From contig NZ_KB235937.1 in the NCBI RefSeq assembly GCF_000332315.1, positions 766,675 through 830,674 of the forward strand: a DNA stretch of 64,000 nucleotides, given 5' to 3'. Each line of letters opens with the position of its first letter. Position 1 is the first letter of the stretch. Both the position numbers and the translations under genes were made by a program. Shown piece by piece: positions 26,122 to 33,279 of the stretch. Under the pieces are notes generated by a model. That model did not search any database, was not told the DNA's origin, and saw nothing but the letters and a program-made list of their open reading frames with translations. The stretch comes from Prochlorothrix hollandica PCC 9006 = CALU 1027 (GTDB taxonomy: Bacteria; Cyanobacteriota; Cyanobacteriia; Prochlorotrichales; Prochlorotrichaceae).

Positions 26122-26337
26122 ATGGCTGTTGAAAAAGTAAACTCCTCCTCTAGCTTGGCCGAAGTGGTCGATCGCATTTTGGACAAGGGCATCGTGATTG
26201 ATGCTTGGGCACGGGTGTCCCTGGTGGGCATCGAGCTTATTTCCATTGAGGCTCGGATCGTGATTGCCTCCGTTGAGACCTATCTGAAGTACGCCGAAGC
26301 CGTGGGTCTCACCGCCCAGGCTGCTGTGCCCGCCTAG
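26122..26337 (+). CDS. gvpA: Gas vesicle major structural protein
   Basis: GvpA is the small hydrophobic protein that builds the ribbed gas-vesicle wall giving buoyancy. The 71-residue product has the diagnostic core [20 protein letters not shown], then [19 protein letters not shown] and a short tail rich in Ala; length is exactly typical. A GGGAG ribosome site lies 8 bases upstream. Only one gvpA copy is present in the window. A hairpin directly after the stop probably ends or attenuates transcription, which in gas-vesicle operons makes gvpA message more abundant than downstream message. First gene of gvpA-C-N-J-K-F. Confidence 0.98.
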
Positions 26338-27057: not shown

Positions 27058-27135
27058 TTCCCGCTTAAAGCGGGACAAGATTAACGGGAGAGTGGGGCGC
27101 GGATCGCCCTACTATCTCGGCTTAAGTTGATACCC
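27058..27135 (+). repeat. Palindromic repeat B, copy 5
   Basis: About 78 bp, ending 29 bases before the gvpC ATG, so it lies in the gvpC leader. Left arm CCGCTTAAAGCGGGACAAG, end GATACCC. Confidence 0.88.
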
Positions 27136-27164: not shown

Positions 27165-28187
27165 ATGACTTCTTTACAGGCCCAATGGCGAGCTGCCCAG
27201 CAGCAACGACAGCAGGAACTGGCCAACCGTGCCCAAGCGGTGCGCAACCGCCTCAGCAACCTGACCATGGAGCGGGATCACAACACCCAAGCCCTGCGGC
27301 AAAACCTGACTCAGTTCCGGGATGAGTTGGCCCTGGAAGGGGATTTATTCAAGGAACAGTGCCAGCACCAGGATCAACAGCGCCGCATGGCGGTGACCAC
27401 TCAGCTCCAGGGTTTTCTGGACGATCGCCAGCAGCAAGCCCAGGAAACTCGTCAAAACTTAGCGGAATTTCGCCAGGATTTAGCCCAACAGCAGGCAGAG
27501 TTGTTGCAAGCTGCCCAAGTCGCCGATCGCTCCCGTCACCAAACAGCCCAGGCCCGCCATCGCCAAACCCAAGCCCAGGTGGCCCATCTCCACGCCGATC
27601 GCCAACAACAGGAACAGAACCTGCGGCAAGACCTCCATAACTTTCGGCACCATTTAGCCCAGGTCCACAACGCCGATACCCAATATCGGCAAGCCGTCCA
27701 CGGGGCGATCGCCCAATCCACCCAAGCCTTTCTCCAAGAAGCCCAGCAATTGCGGCAAATTCAGGCTGAGGAGCAACGCCAAAGCCTACAGGAGCACCGC
27801 GCCAGCATTAGTACCCACGTCTGGGGCACCCCAGAGTCCTTACCCAAAGCCGCCGCCCCCCGTCGTCCCCTCAGCAGCCCGCCGCGCCCTGCCGCTGTTC
27901 CTGGCCCTGCCGCTGTCCCTCGCCCTGCCCCCGTCGCGATCGCCGCCCCCACCCCGGCTCCGGTAGCCGTGGCCGCCCCCACCCCCGCCGCTCCCGCCGC
28001 CCCCAACACCCAGGATCAGGTGTACAACTACCTGAAACAACACCCTGGGCAACGGTTAGCCGATTTGGATGTGCCCTTGGGCCTAACGCGGGTTCAAGTG
28101 GGGGATGCCCTCCGAGAATTGACCAAACAGGGCAAAATCACCCAGCAAGATCGTGCCTATTTCGTCCAGGAGACCCCTAACTCGTGA
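27165..28187 (+). CDS. gvpC: Gas vesicle outer protein GvpC with a C-terminal winged-helix-like domain
   Basis: GvpC binds the outside of the gas vesicle as amphipathic helices and stiffens it. Residues 1-215 are a Gln/Arg/Ala-rich helix with recurring R-Q-[ND]-L-x-x-F-R motifs ([12 protein letters not shown] near 45, [12 protein letters not shown] near 96, [12 protein letters not shown] near 154); spacing is 51 and 58 residues, not the clean 33-residue repeats of classical GvpC. A Pro/Ala linker (about 225-280, with [10 protein letters not shown]-type repeats) leads to residues 283-335, [18 protein letters not shown] then [20 protein letters not shown], which looks like a winged helix and is related to the end of GvpN. 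Identity as GvpC rests on position between gvpA and gvpN plus composition. The stop overlaps the gvpN start (GTGA). Confidence 0.78.
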
Positions 28188-29881
28188 CCACCGTCCTACA
28201 GGCTCGCTCCCGGGGATTTGTCAGCACCCCATTTATTGAACGGCTGACACGGCGGGCATTGCGCTACTTGCAGTCCGGCTATTCGGTGCATTTGCGCGGG
28301 CCTGCGGGAACCGGCAAAACCACCATGGCCTTGCACTTGGCGGATCTGTTGGGTCGTCCCATCATGTTGATTTTTGGCGATGATGAGTCCACCAGTGCTG
28401 ACCTCATCGGCAACCAAAATGGCTATAGCCGCAAAAAGGTGGTGGATAACTACATCCACAGCGTGATCAAGGTGGAAGATGAGATGCGCCACAACTGGGT
28501 AGACTCCCGGTTAACCATGGCCTGTCGAGAAGGCTTCACCTTGGTTTATGACGAGTTCAACCGATCGCGGCCTGAGGTCAATAACGTCCTGTTGTCAGCC
28601 CTGGAAGAAAAACTACTGGTGTTGCCGCCCTCGGCCCAACATACGGAGTATTTACGGGTTGATCCCCATTTCCGGGGTATTTTCACCTCTAACCCAGAAG
28701 AGTATTGCGGGGTTCACTCCACCCAAGATGCCTTGATGGATCGCCTGATTACCATTGATGTGCCGGAGCCTGATGACTTAACCCAACAGGAAATCATGGT
28801 GCAAAAAATGGGACTGGTGCGGGAGTCCGCCCAAACCATTGTCAAGTTGGTCAAATCCTTTCGCCAAGACTGCAAGGTGGGCAAGTCGTCGGGCTTACGG
28901 GCGGCCTTAATCATCGCCAAAATCTGCCAGGAACATCAAATTCCCGTCAGTGCCCGCAATGATCACTTTCGGGATACCTGCTCTGATGTGCTGCTGTCCC
29001 GCACCAAGTTGCCCTTAGAAGACACCACCCAGGTGTTATGGCACTGCCTTAACCGCATGGAGACCCTGGAGCGGGAGTCGGGCGGTCCCCTCTTAATGCC
29101 CATGGCCACATCGGCCACGGAGTCCCAAGGAGGGGGAGACAGTACCACTGCCAACCCTAGTACCACTGCCAACCCTAGCCTTGGATCAGCTCCGCCGGAG
29201 CATGGCCTCGCCGGTAATGGACACCAGGACAACGGCCTAACCAGCAACGGCCTAACCAGTAACGGCCTAAACGGCAACGAGTCAAAAAGCCATGGGCTAA
29301 ACGGTAACGGCCTAACCAGTAACGGCCTAACCAGTAACGGCCTAAACGGTAACGGCCTAAACGGTAACGGCCTAAACGGTAACGGCCTAAACGGTAACGG
29401 CCTAAATGCTAACGGCCTAAACGGCAACGGTCACAATGGTAACGGTCACAATGGTAACGGTCACAATGGTAACGGAGCCAATGGCCATGCCGACAGTCAG
29501 GGCACGGTGAATCGGGTTCAGGCAGACAGCCCTGGCTCTGGGGTTCTGGAGCATCCCCCCAGCGATCGCCCTAACCCCCCCCTTACCCCTAGCTCTGGCG
29601 ATCTAGTCCCCCTGCCCCGCCACGGCAGCAGCCTAACCCCTGCCACCGACGAAACCCTCTCCTTTGGTAACGACACGGAACAGGCCATTTACCGTTACCT
29701 CCAAGCCTCCCAGGGTCAACCCTTGTCGGCGATCGAAGCGGCCCTAGGCATTAACCGGATTCAGGCCGTGGATGCCCTGCGATCCTTGGCTGAACAGGGC
29801 CGGGTGGTGATCCAACGGGATGCATCCGCTGCCCATGATGCAGGGCGTACCATCTACAAGGTGGAGCCATCCCAGGACTAG
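28184..29881 (+). CDS. gvpN: Gas vesicle ATPase GvpN with long Asn/Gly linker and C-terminal winged-helix-like domain
   Basis: GvpN is an AAA/MoxR-like ATPase needed for vesicle enlargement. Residues 1-295 are GvpN proper: Walker [13 protein letters not shown] near 39-50, [13 protein letters not shown], Walker [21 protein letters not shown] near 120-139, [20 protein letters not shown]. Then comes a low-complexity stretch (about 338-433) of [10 protein letters not shown] and GHNGN pentapeptides encoded by a 15-bp tandem repeat, a Pro-rich segment, and residues 498-560, [19 protein letters not shown] then [20 protein letters not shown], similar to the end of GvpC. At 565 residues it is clearly longer than the GvpN core. 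Starts with GTG overlapping the gvpC stop. Confidence 0.93.
29224..29475 (+). repeat. 15-bp tandem repeat inside gvpN
   Basis: Unit GGCCTAAACGGTAAC and variants (GGCCTAACCAGTAAC, GGTCACAATGGTAAC), about 17 units, all in frame and encoding [10 protein letters not shown] and GHNGN pentapeptides. Uniform blocks of identical units suggest recent slippage or unequal exchange. Confidence 0.95.
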
Positions 29882-30377: not shown

Positions 30378-30947
30378 GTGTCTGAATCCGCCCCTGAATC
30401 TACCCCTGAATCTCTCCCTCCAGTGACTGCTGCATCTGACTCCCCCCTCAATACTCCCCTCCTGGTCAAAGCGACGGGCAGTTCGTCTAGGGGGGGCCGT
30501 TCTGATGCGGGCTTAGCGCCCCTGTTGCTGACGGTGACCGAACTGATTCGGCAACTGATGGAGGCCCAAATTATCCGACGCATGGAAGCGGAAGCCCTGA
30601 CCGAGTCGCAACTGGATGAAGCGGCCCAAAGCTTACAAGCCCTGGAGACCCAGGTGCTGCGACTATGCGAGATTTTCGAGATTGATCCGGCCCAACTCAA
30701 TATTGATCTAGGGGAACTGGGGAGTTTGCTGCCCAAGCAAGGGGGCTATTATCCCGGCCAAGGGTATCAACAGACGACGGTGCTGGAACTCCTCGATCGC
30801 CTCCTACAAGTGGGTATTGTGGTGGAGGGGGATGTGGATTTAGGCATTGTCAATTTGAATCTGATTTGCCTGAAGCTACGGCTTGTCCTCACCTCCCAAC
30901 CCCAACGCTCCATCGAGGGCTTACCGCTGCCAGCGGGACAAAATTAA
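30378..30947 (+). CDS. gvpK: Gas vesicle protein GvpK with a GvpA-like C-terminal segment; tail supplied by a repeat
   Basis: GvpK is a small helical gas-vesicle assembly protein. From the GTG at 30378 (no in-frame ATG before the conserved part) there are 189 residues. Residues about 44-125 are GvpK (DAGLAPLLLTVTELIRQLME, IRRMEAEALTESQLDEAAQS, IDPAQLNIDLGELGSLLP). Residues about 134-175 (TTVLELLDRLLQVGIVVEGD, then VDLGIVNLNLICLKLRLVLT) resemble GvpA/GvpJ; I believe other cyanobacterial GvpK share this layout. The last residues, EGLPLPAGQN, are encoded by a B repeat that also provides the stop codon. The N-terminal 40 residues are Ser/Pro/Thr-rich and probably disordered. Confidence 0.92.
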   Translation: MSESAPESTPESLPPVTAASDSPLNTPLLVKATGSSSRGGRSDAGLAPLLLTVTELIRQLMEAQIIRRMEAEALTESQLDEAAQSLQALETQVLRLCEIFEIDPAQLNIDLGELGSLLPKQGGYYPGQGYQQTTVLELLDRLLQVGIVVEGDVDLGIVNLNLICLKLRLVLTSQPQRSIEGLPLPAGQN

Positions 30948-31882: not shown

Positions 31883-32034
31883 GCAGCGTTGCGCCCCTAA
31901 ACCCCACGCCCCACAGCCAACCCACTGCACCAGCAACACCAACCCCAGTGGCCCGATCGACCCTCGGGAAGACTAGGATAGTAGCAGTCTCTCTGCTGCG
32001 CTTGCTGCCACGCTCTAAGGGCAACCCACCTGTT

Positions 32035-33279
32035 ATGGCCAATGAGGAACACCTGGCATTAGTTAAAGAGGGCGTAGCGGCCTGGAACCGCTGGCGTACT
32101 GACAACCAAGATATCTATCCCCAACTAGTACAAGCTGCTTTAGGAAAAGCCGATTTAGCCCAAGGGGATTTTCGCCAGGTGGACCTCAAGCTGTCCAACT
32201 TAGCCGGGGCCATCCTCCACCGGGCCAACTTTGCCGATGCCATCCTCTATACGGCCAACCTTAAGGAAGCCGATCTCCAGGGAGCCAGCCTCCAGGGAGC
32301 AGATTTACGGGAAGTGAACTTTTCCCTGGCGGATCTGAGTGCCGCCGATTTACGCCGTGCTGACCTGCGATCGGCTGATCTCTATACGGCCAACCTGCGG
32401 GAAGCTGACCTGCGGGAGGCCACCCTGAGCCAAGCCGATCTGGCGGAAGTAGACCTGACCATGGCCAACCTCAGCGGTGCCGATCTCCGAGAAACGCGAC
32501 TCACCCGTGCCACCCTCTACACCAGCAACCTCAGTCTTGCCTTACTGCAAAACGCCGACCTGCGCCATGCTGACCTGCGGGAGGCCGATCTCTATACCGC
32601 CAACCTCCAAGGGGCCAACCTAGAACGGGCCAACCTCAGCCGCGCCGACTTGGGGGAATGTGATCTGAGTCGGGCCAACCTGCGCTTTGCCAACCTGCGG
32701 GAAGTGCGATTACGGGAATCGAACCTGGAACAAGCAAACTGCCAGGATGCCATTCTCTACAAGGCCAACCTCAGCCGCAGTTGCCTGCGCCACACCAATC
32801 TCAACCGGGCCAAAATCCAAGAAGCCGAACTCCATGAATCAGATCTATCGGGAGCCTCCTGTACCCGTAGTAATCTCGTGGGCGCTAGCCTCTATTGCTG
32901 CAACCTCAGTTATGCCAACCTGTGCATGGCCAATGCTTGTATGGCCAACCTAGTCCGCGCCAACCTCAGCCACAGCATCCTCATTGGCTCCAACCTCATT
33001 AGTGCCAATCTCTACCGCACAAACCTCCAACAGGCGGATTTATCCTGGGCTGACCTGCGGGAAGCGACCCTCTGCGAGGCGAGTTTCCAGGGAGCGGATC
33101 TGCGGGGGGCCGATTTACGGTGGGCTAATCTCCGGGATGCTAATTTTACCGATGCAGATCTCACCCACGCCCTCTTCACCGCCACTAATCTCCAGGAAGC
33201 CGATCTCAGCCCCCAACAGTTATCCCAAATCCGGCAGGTCAGTGATGTCAAGACCCGATCGCCCACCCCGGCCCGTTAA
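32035..33279 (+). CDS. Pentapeptide-repeat protein
   Basis: The 414-residue protein from ATG 32035 has an N-terminal helical segment (MANEEHLALVKEGVAAWNRW) common to cyanobacterial members, then about 65 tandem A(D/N)Lxx pentapeptides (ADLREA, ANLQGA, ADLSWA patterns), which build a square right-handed beta helix. No signal peptide or other domain is seen, so it is cytosolic. Function is unknown; some relatives mimic DNA, most are uncharacterised. A longer frame to 31948 adds 29 unsupported residues. It follows gvpF on the same strand after 152 bases without a gvp-type sequence; a functional link to gas vesicles is unproven. Confidence 0.93.
   Translation: MANEEHLALVKEGVAAWNRWRTDNQDIYPQLVQAALGKADLAQGDFRQVDLKLSNLAGAILHRANFADAILYTANLKEADLQGASLQGADLREVNFSLADLSAADLRRADLRSADLYTANLREADLREATLSQADLAEVDLTMANLSGADLRETRLTRATLYTSNLSLALLQNADLRHADLREADLYTANLQGANLERANLSRADLGECDLSRANLRFANLREVRLRESNLEQANCQDAILYKANLSRSCLRHTNLNRAKIQEAELHESDLSGASCTRSNLVGASLYCCNLSYANLCMANACMANLVRANLSHSILIGSNLISANLYRTNLQQADLSWADLREATLCEASFQGADLRGADLRWANLRDANFTDADLTHALFTATNLQEADLSPQQLSQIRQVSDVKTRSPTPAR

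Follow-up and report, generated by a model that had tools for sequence, protein, structure and literature searches.

The window, the whole 64,000-nucleotide stretch of Prochlorothrix hollandica PCC 9006 DNA analyzed here, contains a cyanobacterial gas-vesicle cluster in the order gvpA-gvpC-gvpN-gvpJ-gvpK-gvpF. The features on which the analysis centers are as follows:

26122–26337, + strand: gvpA, rib protein (Pfam Gas_vesicle, E 7.6e-17; NCBIfam GvpA subfamily model)
27165–28187, + strand: gvpC, long form of 340 amino acids, with helical repeats, Pro/Ala linker, and predicted winged-helix tail (classical-GvpC profile; located between gvpA and gvpN)
27834–28004, + strand: Pro/Ala-rich linker of GvpC, residues about 224–280 (sequence)
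28005–28184, + strand: predicted winged-helix module of GvpC, residues about 281–340 (AlphaFold2, Foldseek)
28184–29881, + strand: gvpN, 565 amino acids, with AAA+ ATPase, Asn/Gly linker, and predicted winged-helix tail (TIGR02640 gas_vesic_GvpN)
28217–29002, + strand: AAA+ core of GvpN, residues 12–273 (TIGR02640, Pfam AAA_5)
29126–29671, + strand: low-complexity linker of GvpN, residues about 315–496, with Asn/Gly repeats mid-linker, about 340–440 (sequence)
29672–29878, + strand: predicted winged-helix module of GvpN, residues about 497–565 (AlphaFold2, Foldseek, profile vs PDB sequences)

The coordinates and reading frames originally assigned to gvpC and gvpN were right, as was the 4-base overlap between the genes (GTGA), in which the GTG start of gvpN lies within the gvpC stop, and both low-complexity linkers (Pro/Ala in GvpC, Asn/Gly in GvpN) were confirmed. 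GvpN belongs clearly to TIGR02640 (E 2.6e-112; 374.6 bits vs a cut-off of 266.8), sharing the core that the model covers (residues 12–273), while its linker and winged-helix-like tail lie outside the model. The window GvpC was found by a profile of classical 33-residue-repeat GvpC (E 4.7e-7 among 3,940 ORFs), which detects most other long GvpC forms at E values of 1e-10 to 1e-28; this match relates the protein to classical GvpC, and its place between gvpA and gvpN is fitting. The Pfam PF01304 repeat was without a match in the window GvpC, and three other long forms (L009, L117, and L118) scored just under the cut-off of that model.

Several further observations concern the surroundings of the two genes. 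Short tandem DNA repeats (AACGGCCTAAACGGT type; 29200–29490) underlie the GvpN linker, the length of which may therefore vary between strains. GvpK (30378–30947) contains a GvpA-like domain at its C terminus (Pfam GvpK plus Gas_vesicle), and a GvpJMS-GvpK fusion has been described in review (PMC10903477). Directly 3′ of gvpF, on the same strand, lies the gene for a large HetL-like pentapeptide-repeat protein (31948–33279). A palindrome 5′ of gvpC (CCCGCTTAAAGCGGG; 27060–27074, between gvpA and gvpC) was considered as a regulatory element and rejected as not gvp-specific, because it belongs to a family with many copies dispersed in the window (13 at ≤3 mismatches vs 4.7 expected).

The C-terminal tails of GvpC and GvpN are homologous modules of one domain family. 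They align ungapped at 40% identity over 48 residues (BLASTP, E 3e-13 in a single comparison), and with the GvpN tail as query, the sole other match in the whole 5.6-Mb genome was the GvpC tail (E 1.1e-7). Profile-profile comparison of 25 GvpC tails with 31 GvpN tails returned an hhalign probability of 99.8 and an E value of 4.6e-30. The alignment of the tails reported in the initial annotation is thus borne out, and the profiles relate the two segments to each other rather than separating them.

A winged-helix-like fold common to both modules is well supported by structure prediction. When modeled alone with AlphaFold2, each tail assumed the same topology, H1-H2-H3 followed by a two-stranded wing, with mean pLDDT values of 86.9 (GvpC) and 77.4 (GvpN). 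Predicted elements comprise H1 280–292, H2 298–305, H3 309–321, and wing strands 325–328 and 331–334 in GvpC, and H1 497–508, H2 514–521, H3 525–537, and wing strands 541–545 and 556–560 in GvpN. In Foldseek searches of the PDB, Zalpha, MarR, and MntR winged helices ranked first for both tails (TM 0.68–0.82 against solved winged helices); the GvpC tail was closest to the Zalpha structure 4wcg (TM 0.82), followed by MarR/MntR, and the GvpN tail to Zalpha, AdcR/MarR, and SlyA. A GvpN-tail profile searched against PDB sequences recovered MarR-family AdcR (E 3e-4) and CodY (E 8e-4), and Pfam TrmB was matched by 20 of 25 GvpC tails and by all 31 GvpN tails (E up to 0.1; best 7e-8 and 1.5e-7, respectively). 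The window proteins did not reach the curated cut-off of any Pfam HTH family, the best being TrmB at 18.0 bits vs 25.6. AlphaFold2, Foldseek, and, below its cut-off, Pfam therefore concur with the winged-helix-like character first proposed for the shared module.

The domain pair is real and widespread among cyanobacteria. Of 390 genomes drawn once from the cyanobacterial class, 180 had GvpN and 118 had the module, with two module matches in at least 93; 117 of the 118 module-bearing genomes also had GvpN, the exception being G109 (E 1.4e-5). Gene-by-gene inspection of 80 gvp clusters identified GvpC and GvpN as the only carriers of the module. The search of gvp clusters in other genomes for the same tails found them widely, with the module on both proteins in 22 of the 69 rows of a GvpN tree, on GvpN only in nine, on GvpC only in three (L006, L009, and L020), and on neither in 35, five of which lie outside the main cyanobacterial class. 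The GvpN module was present in 22/25 clusters with a GvpC module vs 9/44 without, a coupling that is without significance because only three independent, well-supported lineage pairs (starred branches) differ in the GvpC module, with GvpN following in approximately 1.8 and behaving oppositely in none. The clusters with the module on GvpN only belong mostly to one clade, have a classical short GvpC, and include Nostoc sphaeroides plasmid p4. In one further cluster (L139:9172–13805), gvpA is repeated and GvpC is present as two copies truncated after the VWG motif; the module has thus been lost from GvpC but kept on GvpN, and the truncated copies make this loss appear recent.

The initial annotation described classical GvpC and GvpN as ending without such a domain. 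This holds for the classical short GvpC, for non-cyanobacterial GvpN, and for the Microcystis-type GvpN, the end of which looks like a remnant. However, the premise that GvpN is normally tail-less is wrong for much of the cyanobacteria, because many of their GvpNs, such as that of Nostoc sphaeroides (WP_118171795.1), carry the module tail unannotated. A search for a Pfam or NCBIfam model describing the module on GvpC or GvpN found none, and searches of open-licence literature found no relevant account of Gvp proteins with a winged-helix or DNA-binding domain; the pair is apparently undescribed in all three sources.

The presence of one module on two adjacent genes had been attributed to duplication between neighbors. 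Copying between GvpC and GvpN is retained, but not as a local event. Identity between GvpC and GvpN modules was 36.4% within a genome vs 36.2% between genomes (permutation p 0.41), which indicates that the duplication is ancient; GvpC modules among themselves are 47% alike. In a weakly resolved domain tree of 62 columns, the closest neighbors of the window GvpC module are GvpC modules of other genomes, and the window GvpN module is closest to another GvpN module; grouping of all GvpC modules in one clade was neither shown nor rejected (AU p 0.31). In four Nostoc-like clusters (L086–L089), gvpC lies 3′ of gvpA at the far end, approximately 6 kb from gvpN, and both proteins keep the module. A duplication that was recent or local to this genome, leaving two copies without shared function, would fit the adjacency and 4-base overlap of gvpC and gvpN but is highly improbable, given that sharing a genome does not bring the two copies closer to each other, that each window module is nearest modules of the same gene, and that two copies occur in at least 93/390 genomes of one draw; a recent event in this genome is ruled out by the same comparisons. 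The simplest reading of these sequences would be one old copying event between the genes, in one direction or the other, and then separate descent.

The outward face of helix 3 (consensus R-[VF]-Q-x-[VI]-[DN]-A-L-R-S-L) bears on what the modules bind. Two outward positions that are polar in aligned DNA-binding relatives are here conserved hydrophobics (V/F and V/I). Position 36 is hydrophobic in 25/25 GvpC and 16/22 paired GvpN modules (41/47), and position 39, polar in the relatives, is V/I in 23/25 and 18/22 (likewise 41/47 paired modules); the window GvpC is a divergent member, with Gly313 at position 39. Neither GvpC nor paired GvpN modules thus exhibit the polar or basic outward helix-3 face of DNA-binding winged-helix regulators. 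Mean net charge is about +0.4 for GvpC modules and −0.7 for GvpN modules. The wing of GvpC carries a nearly invariant Q-R-D-R-x-Y motif that is not common to GvpN, in which the wing is often short or missing.

One role initially suggested for the modules was DNA binding, through which GvpC and/or GvpN might sense vesicle assembly and control the gvp operon in response, or might anchor vesicles to the nucleoid. The hydrophobic V/F and V/I positions, the near-neutral charge of the modules, the reduced wing of many GvpNs, and the scores below Pfam cut-offs all argue against this role, as does the location of GvpC, which coats the vesicle in many copies and would be an odd site for a repressor; DNA binding is thus judged unlikely, although most of the closest structural and Pfam matches are winged helices that bind DNA (TrmB; MarR, MntR, and Zalpha as top folds) and the position of Arg309 in helix 3, which frequently contacts DNA in winged-helix folds, is invariant on GvpC modules. 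Although Zalpha gave the best structural match, a Z-DNA binder of this type was rejected since its contact residues (helix-3 Asn and Tyr) are not kept, the Tyr position being Arg in the module (23/25 GvpC) and the Asn position A/T/V in the PDB alignment. For reading of a control signal, the third suggested role, no evidence was found.

A shared surface signature (G-A-R, E-x-E, and R-[VF]-Q-x-[VI]-[DN]..R; 11 positions picked after seeing the GvpC alignment) scored 10.0 of 11 on GvpC modules, 8.5 on GvpN modules with a module-bearing partner, and 3.4 on GvpN modules whose partner had lost it. The fold core was kept equally in GvpN with and without a module-bearing GvpC (10.3 vs 10.6 of 11). Retention of the surface on GvpN therefore seems almost confined to clusters with a GvpC module. 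This pattern is suggestive only, because loss of the shared surface is essentially that of one clade and nearly amounts to one evolutionary change, the signature derives from the GvpC sequences themselves, and the L139 GvpN, whose partner appears to have lost its module recently, still scores 9. Mirror-tree covariation of the two modules was borderline (partial Mantel p 0.052).

These patterns are relevant to a further alternative, in which the modules, rather than docking on each other, would both have a third partner (a different Gvp protein, the GvpA rib, or, for each, modules of its own kind). Such a partner could account for clusters in which either gene keeps the module alone (GvpC in L006, L009, and L020; GvpN in nine clusters) and for the nearly invariant Q-R-D-R-x-Y wing, absent from GvpN, but not readily for the conservation of the same helix-2/helix-3 face on GvpC and, only where GvpC has the module, on GvpN; nor does any other Gvp protein in the 80 clusters carry the module. 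This alternative is considered rather unlikely, if slightly less so than DNA binding.

The best explanation, to which we give about an even chance of being correct, is a tethered winged-helix docking pair that would bring GvpN to GvpC-coated ribs. GvpN is an ATPase needed for gas-vesicle enlargement, deletion of gvpN leaving small bicones, and, as a member of the AAA+ superfamily, is probably ring-shaped. Each rib GvpC would display a tethered winged helix, and the GvpN module would recognize this GvpC module through its own conserved helix-2/helix-3 face, such that GvpN, with several matching modules, could be held at the coated surface by many weak contacts. There, the ATPase may load, loosen, or clear GvpC, letting GvpA in. 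GvpC modules may also bind each other. Because the GvpC wing is not common to GvpN, one module could not simply replace the other, and that of GvpC may make a further contact. The homology, predicted fold, distribution, and surface conservation of the modules were computed, whereas their physical binding and the remodeling of the coat are inferred. ATPase activity has been shown for Anabaena GvpN, and the Anabaena gvp cluster can be assembled in E. coli (PMC7204071).

Protein docking is favored over DNA binding, which appears less likely and weakened, on the grounds of the hydrophobic helix-3 face with near-neutral charge, the pattern of surface retention, and the finding that, in Halobacterium salinarum, the compact domain at the C terminus of GvpC both binds GvpN and self-associates (PMC9372576). 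On such circumstantial grounds, pairing of the GvpC and GvpN modules has the most support among the three roles first proposed. Counterpoints to docking include the three clusters with the module on GvpC only, the observation that GvpC and GvpN modules matched by genome are not more alike, and the fact that winged helices are best known as DNA binders. Gas vesicles are used as ultrasound reporters, and the module is a natural attachment domain on them. The role and mechanism of GvpN were called a compelling challenge in a 2024 review (PMC10903477); matching end domains on GvpN and the coat protein offer a concrete candidate contact point for how GvpN meets GvpC.

In the same review, cyanobacterial GvpC is portrayed as a run of uniform 33-residue repeats, with a C-terminal domain assigned only to haloarchaea (PMC10903477); this repeats-only picture fits a single branch of the cyanobacteria. 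Classical GvpC of cyanobacteria (PF01304, 33-residue repeats) is related to the window GvpC in its repeat region (E 4.7e-7) but ends after the repeats, whereas the long form adds a linker and a winged-helix-like domain. Other ends also occur. In two families, f26 and f27 (L133:10083–11108 and L137:4153–5115), a long GvpC ends after its linker in another conserved domain, LLxVxxDRxxVRDLLAxGAxxLxxDPSxIL..L, which gave no match to the winged-helix module, and the GvpN of these clusters is without a tail. A GvpC-like protein of an uncultured bacterium, encoded upstream of gvpN (L022:4344–5366), has a winged-helix-like end (MCM_C, E 0.005) that resembles the cyanobacterial module only marginally; no relatives of this protein were found among the viral contigs scanned.

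A close parallel is Halobacterium, in which GvpC likewise comprises helical repeats, a long linker, and a compact C-terminal domain, and gvpC and gvpN also overlap by 4 bases. GvpN there seems to compete with GvpC self-association (PMC9372576). In contrast to the cyanobacterial pair, Halobacterium GvpN has no matching tail, and the GvpC domain shows no sequence relationship to the winged helix but is a zinc finger of ROS/MucR-like type: the C terminus of pNRC100 GvpC (L147:2133–2318) matches the transcription-regulator family Pfam PF05443 ROS_MUCR over its cut-off (E about 1.6e-6 to 1.9e-6), a DNA-binding type of fold. Homology between the two was rejected, as the module profile scores below zero on the haloarchaeal domain. 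A broader and more tentative reading, possible but doubtful, is that GvpC across bacteria and archaea repeatedly gained a tethered domain of nucleic-acid-binding type (a winged helix in cyanobacteria, a ROS/MucR finger in haloarchaea, and other domains elsewhere) that was reused as a docking tag for GvpN and, in cyanobacteria, copied onto GvpN to form a homologous lock-and-key pair. Compared with TrmB, MarR, and MntR regulators and Zalpha, the modules are predicted to share the H1-H2-H3-strand-wing-strand fold, but they are without sensor or dimerization domains, score below Pfam cut-offs, are hydrophobic on the usual DNA-facing side, and sit on structural and assembly proteins.
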